46,855 nucleotides of DNA, taken from Roseburia sp. (GTDB lineage Bacteria; Bacillota; Clostridia; Lachnospirales; Lachnospiraceae). Below, one piece after another: positions 23,421 through 29,481 of the stretch (position 1 is the stretch's first letter; each line of letters begins with the position of its first letter). The notes under the pieces were generated by a model, which was not told where the DNA came from, did not search any database, and worked only from the letters and a program-made list of their open reading frames with translations. The position numbers and the translations under genes were made by a program. The stretch is taken from contig JAMPFC010000014.1 in assembly GCA_023664685.1 (NCBI GenBank), positions 1 to 46,855 of the forward strand. Reading direction: 5' to 3'.

Positions 23421-23521
23421 GTTCCTCACTTCCTCTTTTCTTCCACAAATTATATCCCGTCCAAAAGCCTACGCACTTTAGTATAACTTATTTTGGTCAT
23501 TCAAGCAAGAAAAAAAACGGC

Positions 23522-23672
23522 CTGCAGCCACGGAAATCAATTTTAAATGACGACTGTTCTTGAAACAGGTAAACTTCGTACAAAAGCGGGAGTATTTTCC
23601 CTGCTGCTGTACGAAGTTTTACTAGTACTCCCTGAACAGCCGTCATCAAAAATTGATTTCCGTGGTCTGCAG
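23522..23672. repeat. Long palindromic element, copy 1
   Basis: 151-base imperfect inverted repeat. The outer stem is CCACGGAAATCAATTTT 23528-23544 with its exact complement 23649-23665, flanked by CTGCAG on both sides. ATGACGaCTGTTC 23547-23559 pairs with 23634-23646 (one mismatch), and GTAAACTTCGTACA 23569-23582 with 23608-23622. Its terminal about 29 bases match copy 2 at 26699 onward in 23 positions. It sits between scpA and the end of the secreted-protein gene and holds no coding potential. Confidence 0.85.
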
Positions 23673-23709
23673 CTGACTAAACTTGACAGACCGTTCATTT
23701 TTTCTATTT

Positions 23710-26580
23710 CTAATGAATCGTCACATAGAGATAAAGCAGATAATCCTTTTCGTTCTGGTGGATCGTCACCCTTACTAACGTACTTCCTTTCTTCTTTCCA
23801 GTGTACTTTCCTTTTTTATTCACCGCCAATATCTGTTTGTCGATCGGCTCATACGTTACTTTGGACGTTTTTCGCAAGTCATAGACATCGATCCGGCTGG
23901 ATTGGTTCAATAGCCTTTTCTTGGCAATAAGTACCGTCGGGGTGCGGATCACCTTCGACTTAAAGTTCGTCAGCTCATCGGCATTCTTGAACTTCTTCTT
24001 TACCCTCACGTCAACCACCAGACGGTTTGTGTAAATGCCCTTCACTGCCGCAAACGTAATCCTCGCCCGCCCCGGCTTTTTCGCCCGGATCACGCCCTTT
24101 TTGTTCACCGTGGCTACTTTCTTATTCGAGGAAACACAGACGATCTGGGCGCCTTTGCATTTCATGAGCTTGAGTTTCGCCTTCGAGTTCTTTTTCATGA
24201 ACTTAATGACCTTGAAGCCGGGAATCTTATATGCCTTTGCCAGTTTTAAAAGCTGTTCGTACGTGTACTGGCTTCCTGCCTCCCACAGCCTGACGTCGAC
24301 CGCTGTCTGGCTGTTCTCTGACAGTTTTTTCCACTCTTTCTCGCCGGACACCAAAATATCTCTGGTCAAATCTGTCACCTCGGTAATGATGTTCCCGCTT
24401 GGGTCTTTCACATGCTGATCCACAAATTCATCCGCCGCTGTCTGCTCTTCTTTGGTCAGATCTGGCGGAAGGGTCGGCGCCGGCTTCGGAGTCTGTCCGG
24501 AAATGTCCGGAGACGGGTTATCCGGCAGAACAGGGTTCTGCGAAATGGAAGGAATCACCGCGTTCTGGGTGACTACCGGCGGGGTCTGTGATGTACTACT
24601 GGCGGTAGCTATCGGCAGAGTAGGTGTGGCGACCGATGGAAGATTGGAACTAGCCGGTTCTGTCGGGGAAAGTTCCGGCGGAGTCGGCTGTGTCGGTTCA
24701 CTGCCTGAAGCCGGGGTCTTGGTGGCTACCGACGGGGTGGCTGTTGCATCCGGTTCCGGGGTAGGTGTAGGCGTCGGTTTTGGTGCAGGGGGCTGTTCAT
24801 TTATTGTTCCATTCGAACCCACAGTACCTGCCGGTGACCAGACTTGGGATGATAGATCTAAATGCAAAGCGGGACGCACCGTGACACTATAATTGCTAAC
24901 ACTGCTACCACTCTTATATACATACCCACTGAAATTCACATAGGATGCATAAGAACCACTAAGGCTGCCCGGCGACCGCAGCCACCATACTCCATTTCCA
25001 TTCGTCGTATTCGTCCCAGCACCTTGTGCCTTTGTATAAGCAGTATTTACCGCTTCCCTTGTATCTATGGCATCTACTGTTTTGGTAAAACCATAAGATG
25101 TGTTCGTTGCCTCGTTAAGAGAAAGCAGATACACTTTATCTACGGTATTGTTTCCGCCTTCTGTACCATTTGGATTATCCTCATTAACCACTGTCATATC
25201 TCGAATTGCTTCCTGCTCAGTTTGGTTAAATGCCTTGTTCAGAAAGTCATCTGCATCATAGCCATTCAGCCAACTGCGCATCGTACATGTCTCCCATGTG
25301 ACATTTGTATTTGTATCGTTATACTTCTGACAATCCAGATTCTGATCCGCTAACAGAAACGCATCATCCCCATCTACTGACAATACTCTCCATTTAATCG
25401 GCATTTTTTTATAATACTTTTCGTTCCGATAAATCATCTCCGTCCCATCCGAATCCAGATACACTTCCCCATCCACCGAATTTTCCGGAACTGATATTGG
25501 CTCATATTCGTCCTGCCAATAATTTCCAAGCCACACGCAGTCCCATGTAGTCATACCACCGGATATCTGAGGATTTTTTAGTCCATATTTTTCTGATTCT
25601 GATGCCAAAAGTTTCTCGGAACTTGTTCCATCGGAACTCACAGTACCTGCCGGAGACCAGACTGAGCGAGATGATAAATCTAAGTGCAGGACAGGACACA
25701 CACCATTTCCACCATTATTACCAACAAAAATCCCATCCTTTGCCAGATATCCTAAAGCATTCACAAAGCATGCGTGACCTTTGGTTTGGCCCGGCGATCG
25801 TAACCACCACGTCCAATAAGTCGTACTTTCGGCATTACTTATAGGACTTTGCTCCATCTCCCCTCCTACTGCCACATAATCTGTAATTAGCATCTTTCTT
25901 ACATCCGTAGCATTTGTCGCCAAGGAAAAACCATACTCCCTACTCAATGCTTCACTAATCGAGAGAAGATAAATTTTATCTGTCGTATCGTTTCCTCCTG
26001 CTATATTAAAATCCGGATTATTCTCATTGACCACGATCGTATCTCGAATTGCTGACTGCTCCGTTTGGCTGAATGCTTTGTCCCTAAAATTGTTACTTCT
26101 ATAATCCGTTCCGCATACATTTTCATTTTCGTCATAGCCATTCAGCCAACTGCGCGTTGTACATTTTTCCCACGTAACATCTGCAAATTTATCATTATAT
26201 CTCTGCAAATCTAAACATTTGTCAGCCATGAGAAACGCATCGTTCCCATCTACTGACAATACCCTCCATTTGATCGGCATTTTTTTATAATATTTTGATT
26301 TCCGATAAATCATCTCCGTCCCATTCGAATCCAGATACACCTTCCTATCCTCCGGATTTTCCGGAGCTGTTATTGGCACATATTCATCCTGCCAGTAACT
26401 TCCAAACTCCACACAATCCCATGTAACAATCCCCTGTTCATTCCGAACCGGATTACTAAGACCATAACTTCCTCCACCCTCTGCCGCACACACTTCCACC
26501 CCTCCCCCCGGCAGCAGCCCTGCCAACATAGCAGCTACCAAGATCAACGCACCCGGTTTGCGTATTTTCGCCCTTATCAT
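23710..26580 (-). CDS. Large secreted protein: two DUF6273-like repeats, Pro/Thr linker, Ig-like C-terminus
   Basis: 956 aa from ATG 26580, preceded by AAGGAGG. A signal peptide of about 33 residues ends at VCAA. Two homologous domains follow (about 39-325 and 330-600), each with WDCV.G.YWQDEY, MIYR..KYYKKMPIKWRVLSVDG, TRSWLNGYD, NQTEQ.AIRD and the hallmark WWLRSPG, as in DUF6273. A linker of about 110 residues rich in Pro, Thr and Ser (TPTPTPEPDATATPS) leads to a helical segment and two Big_2-like Ig domains (SSNKKVATVNKKGVIRAKKPG; ILAVNKKGKYTGKKKGST). No sorting signal. Probably an extracellular or wall-associated binding protein; function unknown. Flanked by two copies of one palindromic element. 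Confidence 0.85.
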   Translation of the reverse strand: MIRAKIRKPGALILVAAMLAGLLPGGGVEVCAAEGGGSYGLSNPVRNEQGIVTWDCVEFGSYWQDEYVPITAPENPEDRKVYLDSNGTEMIYRKSKYYKKMPIKWRVLSVDGNDAFLMADKCLDLQRYNDKFADVTWEKCTTRSWLNGYDENENVCGTDYRSNNFRDKAFSQTEQSAIRDTIVVNENNPDFNIAGGNDTTDKIYLLSISEALSREYGFSLATNATDVRKMLITDYVAVGGEMEQSPISNAESTTYWTWWLRSPGQTKGHACFVNALGYLAKDGIFVGNNGGNGVCPVLHLDLSSRSVWSPAGTVSSDGTSSEKLLASESEKYGLKNPQISGGMTTWDCVWLGNYWQDEYEPISVPENSVDGEVYLDSDGTEMIYRNEKYYKKMPIKWRVLSVDGDDAFLLADQNLDCQKYNDTNTNVTWETCTMRSWLNGYDADDFLNKAFNQTEQEAIRDMTVVNEDNPNGTEGGNNTVDKVYLLSLNEATNTSYGFTKTVDAIDTREAVNTAYTKAQGAGTNTTNGNGVWWLRSPGSLSGSYASYVNFSGYVYKSGSSVSNYSVTVRPALHLDLSSQVWSPAGTVGSNGTINEQPPAPKPTPTPTPEPDATATPSVATKTPASGSEPTQPTPPELSPTEPASSNLPSVATPTLPIATASSTSQTPPVVTQNAVIPSISQNPVLPDNPSPDISGQTPKPAPTLPPDLTKEEQTAADEFVDQHVKDPSGNIITEVTDLTRDILVSGEKEWKKLSENSQTAVDVRLWEAGSQYTYEQLLKLAKAYKIPGFKVIKFMKKNSKAKLKLMKCKGAQIVCVSSNKKVATVNKKGVIRAKKPGRARITFAAVKGIYTNRLVVDVRVKKKFKNADELTNFKSKVIRTPTVLIAKKRLLNQSSRIDVYDLRKTSKVTYEPIDKQILAVNKKGKYTGKKKGSTLVRVTIHQNEKDYLLYLYVTIH

Positions 26581-26613
26581 ATCTTGGTTTCCTCCTTTCT
26601 TCCGTCCAAAAAG

Positions 26614-26664
26614 AAAATGATATCTTATTCTATTATCATAGCATAAGATATCATTTTGTGTCAA
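26614..26664 (-). promoter_or_regulatory. Promoter embedded in a 15-bp inverted repeat
   Basis: Minus strand TTGACA (26664-26659) and TATGAT (26640-26635) are 18 bp apart. AAAATGATATCTTAT 26614-26628 and its exact complement 26643-26657 flank the -10 with a 14-base centre. The repeat covers the promoter spacer and the transcription start, a strong candidate operator for the secreted-protein gene 34 bases further on. Confidence 0.7.
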
Positions 26665-26699
26665 AACATATCAAGGTGAATCCACAGAAATGAATCTGC

Positions 26700-26964
26700 G
26701 GAAATCAATGTTGAATAACTACTATTCAGGAAATACCAGTAAAATCTTGTGTGGTAACAGGAATATTTTCAGATGAGAACCTTATAAACCGTCGGTTCTT
26801 AGGCTGCGAGGTGCGACTTTTGCACAAAGTGCGGAAGGCGCATCGTGCAGCCTTAGTACCGCTACGTGTTTATCTAGCGAAAGCGGGTTCGAGGCGGAAA
26901 ATATTCCTGTTACCACACAAAGTTTACCCATTTCAAAAATTGTAGTCACTCAACATTGATTTCC
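26700..26964. repeat. Long palindromic element, copy 2
   Basis: 265-base element. The outer stem GGAAATCAATGTTGA 26700-26714 pairs perfectly with 26950-26964, and TTGTGTGGTAACAGGAATATTTTC 26747-26770 pairs perfectly with 26897-26920 (24 bp). A further stem is formed by AGGCTGC and GCAGCCT near 26811 and 26846. The ends match copy 1. The right end lies inside the metallophosphoesterase gene and supplies its last codons and stop. Confidence 0.88.
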
Positions 26965-27821
26965 ATGAGGTGAACCACCGAGACTTCCGGCGGATTAAAA
27001 AAACGCAGGCGGATGTGGTGGGTTCCCAGTCCCCGCGAGAGAACCATATAAGCCCCGTTCTCCCGGAAAAGCCCGGCATCGTATTTGGGAAAAAGGCGGA
27101 GTGCCGGATCAATGACGCCGCCGAGCAGCGGAAGTTTGGCGATCCCGCCATGCACATGTCCCGACAGCACAAGGTCTGCCCCCCATTCACGATACGCCGG
27201 AAAATATTCCGGATCATGCGCCAGTAAAATACGCACTTCCTCTGTTCCGGCGGCGCCGAGCAGCATTTTCATATTCTCTGCGCCAAACTCCCGCTTCTGC
27301 CAGAACTTATGATAGAACTCCTCCCCAATATCAAGCCCGTAAATGCCGATTTTTCGGTTCTTTAAAAAAAGGAAGCTGCTGCTGTTACCGAGCCAGACGA
27401 CCCCCGCCTTTTTCAGCCGGTCGATATACTCCGGATATTCCGCCATCCGGATCTCATGATTTCCCGGCGCATAATAGACCGGGCAAAACGAAACAAGTTC
27501 TTTACACAAAGCAAGGCAAGAGTCCATCCCCTTGCCATTTTTTACCGTCATATCGCCCGCTATACAGATCATATCAGGCTTTTGCTCTCTCACCGCCCGG
27601 AGCAGTCTGCTGTTTTTCGTTCCAAATGTATTGGCATGAAGGTCGGTCAGCATAACGATCCGAATTTCTTCGCTTTCGCTTTTTTTTTCGCTTTTTCCCC
27701 CTCCGTCTCCCTGCCCGGCACCGATCTCATAGTGTTCTGTTTTCAGCATATAATTGGAACCGTACCCATACAGAAGCAAGCCTGCGATAAAGACTGCCAC
27801 AACCGTTATGATCACAACCAT
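26946..27821 (-). CDS. Membrane-anchored calcineurin-like metallophosphoesterase
   Basis: 291 aa from ATG 27821, preceded by GAGGAAGGT. One N-terminal helix (VVIITVVAVFIAGLLLYGYG) then a short charged linker. The metal motifs appear in order: MLTDLHANTFG, CIAGDMTVKNG, YYAPGNHEIRM, LLAHDPEYF and VLSGHVHGGIAKLP, so all ligands of the two-metal site are present. Similar to the YkuE/YaeI type, which acts outside the membrane on phospho-lipids or UDP-sugars; substrate unknown. Its final codons (MEINVE) are encoded by the right end of the palindromic element, suggesting the original C-terminus was altered. A longer upstream frame overlapping the next gene is rejected. Confidence 0.9.
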   Translation of the reverse strand: MVVIITVVAVFIAGLLLYGYGSNYMLKTEHYEIGAGQGDGGGKSEKKSESEEIRIVMLTDLHANTFGTKNSRLLRAVREQKPDMICIAGDMTVKNGKGMDSCLALCKELVSFCPVYYAPGNHEIRMAEYPEYIDRLKKAGVVWLGNSSSFLFLKNRKIGIYGLDIGEEFYHKFWQKREFGAENMKMLLGAAGTEEVRILLAHDPEYFPAYREWGADLVLSGHVHGGIAKLPLLGGVIDPALRLFPKYDAGLFRENGAYMVLSRGLGTHHIRLRFFNPPEVSVVHLMEINVE

Positions 27822-27843
27822 ACCTTCCTCATTCCTGAATCCT

Positions 27844-29481
27844 TTACAATTCCTCGTCGTCCTGCTCGGCAAACGCAATGTTCGTACCGTGGTCAGCCAC
27901 ACGTTCAAGATTGCTCAGAAGATCCGTAAAAATCATCGCCGCGTGCGGCTCGCATTTATTGTTCGCCAGACGGTGAACATGCTTTTTCTGGAGTTTCTTT
28001 TCCATTTTGTCGATTTCGTTCTCTAGCTGCAAAATATCCTCTGCATGCGTTTCATCGCCTGTCACGAACATATCGATTGAAAACTCAAGAAGCTGCGTGA
28101 CCTTCTCAAACATTTCCCGCAATTCATTCTGCGCCTTCTTCGTAAATTTCAGATTATTTGACATTGTCGTCTTGGCAAAATCTGCGATATTTTCCGCGTG
28201 ATCCCCGATCCGCTCGATATCGTTTACGACATGGAACATCGCACCAAGCTGCTTGCGGTCTTGGATCGGAAGGGATAACTGGTTTACCTTTACGAGATAA
28301 TTGGAAATTTCTGTATTTAAATAATCGATCACTTTTTCCTTTTTATAAACTTCCTTGAGTGCTTGCTCATTCTTATTTAAAAGCGCATCCATTGAACGTC
28401 CGAGATTGTTCACTGCCATCGTACCCATCCGCTGTACCTCACTGACCGCCTGCGGAAGCGCAGTCGTAAGATTGAAAATGGTATGCTTTCCGATGAATTT
28501 CAGCTCCATTCCGTGAACCTCTTCATCTTCACCCGGTACGAGAAGATACGAAAGACGGATCAAAAGCTTACTGCATGGGAACAGGACGATCACTTGGAAA
28601 ATCTTAATGATCGTATTGATATTTGCCACGTCACGTCCCGCACGAAGCCCGGCATTTGCGGTGGAAGCAGTGAGACTGTGGATCGCAGCCATGATCCCCT
28701 CTCCCCATAGTCCTAAGAGCGCCATGACAATGATCAAGCCGATGACGTTAAATGACAAATGGAGCATCGCAGCGCGTTTTGCATCTTTCGTTCCGCTCAG
28801 GCTTGCCAAAAATGCCGAACCACAGGCGCCGATATTACATCCCATAATGACATAATAACATATGTTCAGATCCATCAGCCCCGACGAGGCGAGGACGATA
28901 AGGATACCAACCGAAGCGGAGGCACTCTGTAAAATAGACGTCGCCACAAATCCGATCAGTACTGCAACAAACGGATTCGTCAGGCTGCCAAACATATTTT
29001 TGATCGCCGTCACTTCATTTAACTTGTCCACCGATGAGGACAGCGTAGACATGCCAAAAAACAATACGCCAAATCCAAGCAGAACCTCACCGACCCGTTT
29101 TACCATCGGTTTTTTGATAAACATGACCATGATCACGCCGATGATGATAAAAATCGGGGCGACCGCATCCAGTTTGAAAGACACAAGCTGTCCGGTCACA
29201 GTCGTACCGATATTCGCTCCCATGATCACACCGACAGACTGCGACAGGTTCATCAGCCCGCTGTTTACAAAACTGACAACAAGTACCGTCGTGGCATTGG
29301 AGGACTGGATGATTCCGGTGAACACAATACCAAGTAAAAGCCCCATAAATGGATTTGTCGTCAATTTCTCAAGTATGGTACGCATCTTTCCGCCGGCGAC
29401 CTTCTGAAGCCCGTCGCTCATAAGCTGCATTCCATATAAAAACAAACCAACTCCCGCCATGATCTGTAATGCTAATTCCAT
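27844..29481 (-). CDS. Na+/phosphate cotransporter family protein with PhoU-like domain
   Basis: 545 aa. Two Na/Pi-cotransporter repeats with hallmark QSSNATTVLVVSFVNSG and QSASASVGILIVLASSG motifs, and about eight membrane helices up to residue 310. A cytosolic PhoU-like helical domain follows (MGTMAVNNLGRSMDALL, NDIERIGDHAENIADFA, NLERVADHGTNIAFA). The family imports phosphate with sodium, with PhoU part as regulator. AGAGGAG precedes ATG 29481. It ends 22 bases before the start of the phosphoesterase gene, and the two probably form one transcript. Confidence 0.93.
   Translation of the reverse strand: MELALQIMAGVGLFLYGMQLMSDGLQKVAGGKMRTILEKLTTNPFMGLLLGIVFTGIIQSSNATTVLVVSFVNSGLMNLSQSVGVIMGANIGTTVTGQLVSFKLDAVAPIFIIIGVIMVMFIKKPMVKRVGEVLLGFGVLFFGMSTLSSSVDKLNEVTAIKNMFGSLTNPFVAVLIGFVATSILQSASASVGILIVLASSGLMDLNICYYVIMGCNIGACGSAFLASLSGTKDAKRAAMLHLSFNVIGLIIVMALLGLWGEGIMAAIHSLTASTANAGLRAGRDVANINTIIKIFQVIVLFPCSKLLIRLSYLLVPGEDEEVHGMELKFIGKHTIFNLTTALPQAVSEVQRMGTMAVNNLGRSMDALLNKNEQALKEVYKKEKVIDYLNTEISNYLVKVNQLSLPIQDRKQLGAMFHVVNDIERIGDHAENIADFAKTTMSNNLKFTKKAQNELREMFEKVTQLLEFSIDMFVTGDETHAEDILQLENEIDKMEKKLQKKHVHRLANNKCEPHAAMIFTDLLSNLERVADHGTNIAFAEQDDEEL

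Follow-up and report, generated by a model that had tools for sequence, protein, structure and literature searches.

Palindromic MITE-class elements around a Roseburia DUF6273 gene and their conserved core, which looks like an uncatalogued structured RNA

The palindromes and their locus

We analyzed a 46,855-nucleotide stretch of a Roseburia sp. genome (positions 1 to 46,855 of contig JAMPFC010000014.1, assembly GCA_023664685.1; hereafter, the window), in which two long palindromes, copy A and copy B, lie on either side of a gene with DUF6273 domains. An earlier note on this DNA had described them as a related pair at 23522-23672 and 26700-26964 that flanks exactly one gene, and had likened them to miniature inverted-repeat transposable elements (MITEs) or to repetitive extragenic palindromes (REPs) with their REP-associated tyrosine transposases (RAYTs). 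Direct reading and a repeat search confirm that the paired palindromes are real, with a single large open reading frame (ORF, 23710-26664) between them; judged by the element ends, the extents had to be corrected to 23529-23664 and 26697-26967. The features of the locus are as follows.

23520-23528, unstranded: left 9-bp direct repeat of copy A, GCCTGCAGC, identical at 8/9 positions to 23665-23673
23529-23664, minus strand: copy A, an element without the putative RNA core, ends CACGGAAATCAATTTTAA..CAAAAATTGATTTCCGTG; RNA strand judged from the arms
23665-23673, unstranded: right 9-bp direct repeat of copy A, GTCTGCAGC
23710-26664, minus strand: 984-aa ORF between the palindromes, containing two stretches of DUF6273 (Pfam PF19789, E 6.5e-51) and a match to Big_2
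26688-26696, unstranded: left flank of copy B, AAATGAATC, a decayed direct repeat (6/9 against 26968-26976)
26697-26967, plus strand: copy B, a complete, self-complementary element of 271 bp
26946-27908, minus strand: metallophosphoesterase ORF (ORF list, Pfam PF00149), the last codons and stop of which lie within copy B
26968-26976, unstranded: right flank of copy B, AGGTGAACC

The repeat search paired 23528-23559 with 23634-23665 in copy A (32 nt, 91% complementary) and 26700-26734 with 26930-26964 as the outer arms of copy B (35 nt, 83%); the inner arms of copy B, 26742-26781 and 26886-26925 (40 nt, 83%), contain the perfect 24-bp stem that had been reported. Both palindromes carry CACGGAAATCAATTTT-like ends, a 35-nt end is 80% identical between them (repeat search), and the claimed internal identity of 17/20 can be seen by eye (TTGAAACAGGTAAACTTCGT versus TTGAAATGGGTAAACTTTGT). 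Both fold far more stably than expected from shuffled sequences: -51.1 kcal/mol for copy A as DNA (z -14.0) and -131.1 kcal/mol for copy B as RNA (z -12.3), with none of 200 shuffles equal in either case. Copy A is without the core that copy B has. Aligned with a copy on contig C53, copy A keeps both arms, and the entire centre is gone; on this alignment, copy A would be an internally deleted element that has lost the core.

A dispersed family of MITE-class elements

The window genome (3.0 Mb in 131 contigs) contains numerous copies detectable by DNA similarity, several of these at contig ends, and the relatives of copy B are 73-87% identical to it over much of the element length. With up to 2 mismatches allowed, the end pattern GGAAATCAATTTTGA has 61 matches genome-wide, compared with 2 for the reversed control, so that the refuting case named in the earlier note, termini confined to this locus, does not hold. 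A covariance model of the core described below (R2) placed it at 66 or more distinct sites in this genome (67 rows), a lower bound because 150 of the 291 candidates were scored.

Insertion of these elements appears to duplicate the target. In a first set of stretches, we collected 12 end pairs (46-304 bp long, under a 420-bp limit), and the 9-mers flanking them were identical at 6 or more of the 9 positions in 6/12 cases (two 9/9, one 8/9, two 7/9 and one 6/9), as against 2/132 for mixed-pairing controls. The identity of the flanks peaks at length 9, where it is 0.53, compared with 0.13-0.36 for any other length in the range of 4 to 12. In another genome, G089, 3/8 copies are bordered by exact direct repeats of 8, 10 and 11 bp, with a control maximum of 7. 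The duplications are 9 bp long in the window genome and probably about 8 bp in another genome, where the ends are different. The elements show features of MITEs, namely, small size without a transposase of their own (271 bp for copy B), terminal inverted repeats and duplications of fixed length (9 bp).

Comparison with related genomes points in the same direction. We compared relatives that are 85-86% identical in the neighbouring transporter protein (the nearest ones by protein being labelled uncultured Roseburia, Lachnoclostridium, Eubacterium and similar). In all five with a contig that runs across the place (the contig of a sixth stopped short of it), the aligned metallophosphoesterase and scpA blocks are 128-139 bp apart, compared with about 3.5 kb in the window, so that both palindromes and the DUF6273 ORF are absent there; the flanks do not align to the base. 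The many copies, the 9-bp direct repeats and the relatives without the block support the MITE-like, transposase-less mobility that had been proposed, the REP/RAYT-like part of the proposal being a different matter (see below). We assign copies A and B to a MITE-class superfamily of palindromic mobile elements that are non-autonomous.

A conserved core that looks like a structured RNA

Across the copies, the outer arms have diverged, and the centre is conserved. The central region of about 130 nt looks like a structured RNA, with a predicted fold that consists of a long outer stem, a three-way junction, a stem with a 2-nt CU/UU bulge, and a GNRA mini-hairpin. We built two covariance models, R1 and R2, the second of which used none of the 28 rows of the first alignment, A1. 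These 28 cores had been hand-picked from an nhmmer list, with truncated and antisense rows excluded. Alignment A2 includes every match (74, of which 73 are distinct) from 55 loci, and A3 consists of 24 rows from genomes outside A2, all of them kept, including two at about 30 bits, one of which is the antisense of another row. In the window, copy B is the sole match to R2 at E values up to 1, and the predicted parts of its core are the following, all on the plus strand.

26757-26915: putative structured RNA core, together with the inner section of the outer stem (R2, 114.6 bits, E 1.2e-27)
26758-26770: 5' strand of P1, partner 26897-26909; 12/12 pairs changed on both sides in A2
26777-26782: 5' strand of P2, partner 26885-26890
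26784-26792: 5' strand of P3, partner 26864-26873
26793-26861: P4 stem, with a variable tip
26862-26863: conserved 2-nt bulge, CU (among 74 copies, CU in 57, UU in 16, UG in 1)
26877-26884: P5, GNRA mini-hairpin GCGAAAGC (GNRA in 71/74 copies of A2 and 27/28 of A1)

The covariation in support of this fold is extensive. Among the 46 pairs of A1, 17 show two-sided changes, and in A2 such changes are found at 45/46 pairs, with 94.8% of the pair cells standard; none of 500 shuffles did as well, and with the partners slid by 1-3 columns, the standard pairs fell to 32-46%. A3 behaves similarly (91.2% standard, 38/42 pairs changed on both sides, 36-43% when slid). Two further features are conserved: the CU/UU bulge, which separates P3 from P4 on the 3' strand, is present in 73/74 copies, and the loop of the two-pair hairpin P5 takes 7 of the 8 possible GNRA forms (GAAA, GCAA, GAGA, GCGA, GGAA, GGGA and GUAA).

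The core seems to be uncatalogued. Rfam 15 finds only a tRNA in the whole window; at E values up to 10, positions 26600-27000 give six matches, all under the gathering score, and 20 other loci, searched at E up to 0.5, match two miRNA models, again below it. In the published literature, as incompletely covered by open-licence texts, we found no title or abstract that describes this RNA or element family.

Different ends, divergent pairs and distribution

Elements with unlike mobile ends seem to share this one RNA. Judged by eye, the ends are CACGGAAATCAATTTT (type A) and TTGCAG.TTTACAGTAT (type B) in the window genome, AAACTGTAG.TTAAAGGAA in G075 and GGGGTGGGGAAA in G089, and there are others too. 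A hammerhead ribozyme was considered for the GATGAG/CGAAGC internal loop of type A, which resembles a hammerhead core; this candidate was dropped, since inspection by eye shows neither the expected junction nor, in most other copies, preservation of the loop.

Neighbouring cores tend to point away from each other. In the window genome, cores less than 4 kb apart are divergent (minus, then plus) in 11/12 cases, compared with 3/15 at larger distances; counting an extra minus-strand match (L131:1046-1169, on C120) that lies beside a minus-strand copy, outside the 66 places, makes this 11/13. Among the matches listed for other genomes, 15/18 pairs are divergent by eye, 2 are plus-plus and 1 is minus-minus; beside one plus-plus pair, a further minus-strand copy was found. 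In G075 (L150, L273-L276), several divergent pairs have a common conserved spacer between both cores, and the pair itself may move there, as a unit of about 500 bp.

The sampled genomes overlap, and few candidates were scored in each, so that the following counts are lower bounds. R1 matched 32/145 genomes, including that of the window, and 19/100 genera. With R2, the order sample yielded 62/392 genomes, all 62 in the family of the window, and 31/173 genera; the class sample yielded 10/391, every one in this family; and the phylum sample, 5/398, four in this family and one (G1188) in another family and class. By the labels of the near relatives given above, the family of the carriers is probably Lachnospiraceae. 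G1188 contains five copies (L319-L323) with the fold and GNRA loops; in two of them, CCTT stands in place of CGTC, and the opposite strand has changed to match. Plasmids and phages, searched by blastn with copy B, gave no match, and R2 had none in 490,871 bases from 71 loci of named records.

Mobile elements with an RNA, or palindromes read as DNA

We consider it probable that these are non-autonomous palindromic mobile elements, moved in trans, that carry an uncatalogued structured RNA with a presumed role of its own. Under this scenario, a DDE-type cut-and-paste transposase would act in trans to insert the element; duplications of fixed length point to an enzyme of this type. Once transcribed, the central domain would fold into a compact RNA module, which would be kept by selection at the RNA level and could help the element to persist or spread, perhaps by controlling transcripts that cross the element or by binding a protein. 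Copy A would have lost its core by deletion.

If only pairing in double-stranded DNA mattered, GU and AC combinations would be expected to be equally common, and an excess of GU accordingly favours RNA. With two consensus-wobble columns per alignment set aside, and L239, L246, L253 and L260 excluded (as in the analysis of the outer arms), the GU:AC counts are 82:42 in A2 and 29:14 in A1. Counted by helix, P1 of A2 gives 29:13. The GNRA hairpin and the bulge are kept in one strand sense across many genera. Within four genomes, the mean likeness of the outer 13-mer between copies is 0.62-0.82, compared with 0.87-0.95 for the core, and these 13-mers still mostly pair within each copy, most poorly in G078. 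On balance, the excess of GU together with the GNRA rule favours RNA.

Several observations weigh against this scenario. Overall, GU outnumbers AC by no more than about 2:1; the excess hardly appears in P1 of A1 (14:12) and is reversed in P3/P4a of A2 (11:15), a reversal that slightly lowered our confidence, so that some of the pairing could be maintained as DNA. The three alignments are linked via the models used to find them; moreover, A2 and A3 were fitted to the structure. Half of the end pairs (6/12) are without an in-register repeat (of these, C98 is probably a chance pair, and another has, by eye, an 8-bp repeat one base off register), and in G085, G078 and G046, the direct repeats do not exceed those of the control (for these genomes and G089, L246, L260 and L266 were excluded from the repeat test). 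The strand of the RNA shows no clear preference with respect to the neighbouring genes: it is the same as that of the 5' gene in 22 cases and opposite in 31, and for the 3' gene, the counts are 23 and 30 (66 places were taken, of which 53 were scored, 2 lay within ORFs and 11 were unscorable). Finally, inspection by eye of the end-pattern matches in the 131-contig assembly revealed no transposase with matching ends and no autonomous copy, although an insertion sequence (IS) could be missing from so fragmented an assembly. The only transposase-sized spans between ends are the one from copy A to copy B, which holds the DUF6273 ORF, and one on C54 that rests on a 2-mismatch match. To our knowledge, the partner is not known for every MITE.

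The alternative that survives best, although we think it unlikely, is an ordinary palindromic MITE whose fold matters only as a DNA cruciform or single-stranded hairpin read by the transposase, with template-switch correction keeping the arms complementary and the RNA without a role. It would account for outer stems that differ among copies and mostly still pair, for a core lost between the arms in copy A, and for the lack of GU excess over AC in P3/P4a of A2 and, clearly at least, in P1 of A1. At L067:3082-3244 (in A1), the internal loop is replaced by the mirror of the other arm, as such correction would give, and template switching may still contribute. However, the purine at the third loop position (implied by GNRA in 71/74), the strand-specific CU/UU bulge and the overall prevalence of GU over AC point to the use of one strand as RNA; single-stranded DNA with G-T wobble could also fit.

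We regard it as improbable that the elements are now RNA devices of the host, such as terminators or processing and stability sites, with mobility being only historical. The very stable folds and the location of 53/55 scored places outside long ORFs (by crude ORF calls) are compatible with this possibility; against it, the elements show no clear preference in orientation towards the ORF before or after them, and match counts range from 0 to at least 20 among genomes of one family.

That copies A and B move together with the DUF6273 gene as one composite unit, as the earlier note had thought conceivable, is still less credible. Copy A (minus, by its arms) and copy B (plus) fit the divergent order of 11/12 close neighbours, the entire block is missing in 5/5 relatives that span the place, and a second DUF6273 match of the window genome, C43:210041, also lies within a divergent pair. 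Against this stands the 9-bp repeat that each palindrome has of its own (8/9 for A, 6/9 for B), whereas the sequence left of A matches that right of B at only 4/9 positions (by eye; 4 or more were seen in 17/132 controls). Hence the arrangement expected of a composite transposon, a direct repeat outside the pair with none at each copy, is not observed. Moreover, the other wide divergent pairs enclose other kinds of genes, without common cargo: judging by their translations, the ORFs inside them look, for instance, MarR-like, glutathione-peroxidase-like and acetyltransferase-like (Pfam was run on ten ORFs of the window only). Mostly, then, the flanking of the DUF6273 gene appears to be incidental, and the two copies would have entered separately. 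DUF6273 itself is abundant in the window genome, with 15 matches (14 above the cut-off) in about 11 open frames, and the ones on C37, C43 (two) and C124 have palindromes no more than about 3 kb away.

The REP/RAYT reading hardly deserves credence. In the core, CGTC precedes the hairpin, with GTAG on the opposite strand, tag-like letters that, with the head-to-head pairing, resemble REPs (PMC3733652), but here these letters are base-paired and change with compensation, leaving no unpaired tag, the elements are several times longer (about 130-300 bp compared with 20-40 bp), and PF01797, the IS200-like Y1 transposase, was not found in the window genome (G000) or in G025, G019, G075 and G049, among the nine other carriers searched, although it is present in the carriers G089, G085, G078, G046 and G054 and in 4/6 genomes without core matches.

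Relationship to known repeats and significance

Prokaryotic MITEs (reviewed in PMC10969869) resemble the present elements in their short length, inverted ends, direct repeats (7-9 bp for the example of QMITE2 of Coxiella) and stable hairpin transcripts, the latter being predicted in the present case. The difference is that here one covarying fold is common to many genera and to elements with unlike ends, and no partner IS was found. In PMC3049150, the pneumococcal BOX, RUP and SPRITE repeats are described, from streptococci, as interspersed, with extensive RNA structure, and are thought to be mobile non-autonomously; BOX, a modular repeat, is variable in length, as is the tip of P4 here. This comparison is by description. 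The same source presents ERIC and Correia as repeats that act on transcripts after insertion, through RNase cleavage, again a likeness in description. REPs and REPINs with RAYTs share palindromes, predominant head-to-head dimers and the CGTC/GTAG letters (PMC3733652; see also PMC3116915), whereas our elements are much longer, with paired tag letters, direct repeats of fixed length, and no Y1 found in several carriers.

The conserved fold is the main point, beyond what the earlier note could see: a strongly covarying, putative structured RNA, at no fewer than 66 places in the window genome and with matches in dozens of other genomes, without a match in Rfam 15. It links bacterial MITEs to a defined, testable fold, and the GNRA loop, the bulge and the compensated stems offer handles on why a non-autonomous element keeps an RNA. 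The question arises whether this RNA would steer mobility or affect host transcripts. R1 and R2 could be used to annotate the core in further genomes. Tentatively, and with considerable doubt, we raise the possibility of a new class of mobile elements in which the RNA core is what does the work. A single RNA domain, combined with unlike ends and duplications of about 8 or 9 bp, would be required, in cis or in trans, for the elements to spread or persist, and would act in divergent pairs whose 5' ends face each other. If so, bacteria would have their own counterpart of an RNA-dependent, non-autonomous element.

Truncated copies and neighbouring features

Further copies without the core were noticed at L076 (about 2796-2897), L059:69-174 and L075 (about 2480-2545), and their junctions, by eye, lie close to AATATT where the core has its base, as in copy A; recurrent deletion across the hairpin seems likely. 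A 47-bp copy, L057:4664-4710 (C65:64663-64709), consists of little beyond both ends and has neither the core nor a 9-bp repeat. L058:3719 and L059:3646 are lone element ends, CACGGAAATCAATTTTG, with the partner end missing, one of them upstream of a tRNA-like stretch (by eye).

In the window, 26946-26967 of copy B supplies the last codons and the stop of the metallophosphoesterase gene, which implies insertion at its extreme 3' end; by eye, the genes of the relatives end otherwise and have no such element. Near the start of the DUF6273 ORF, at 26614-26657, there is another, separate inverted repeat (20 bp, 95%, with a 4-nt gap), perhaps an operator.

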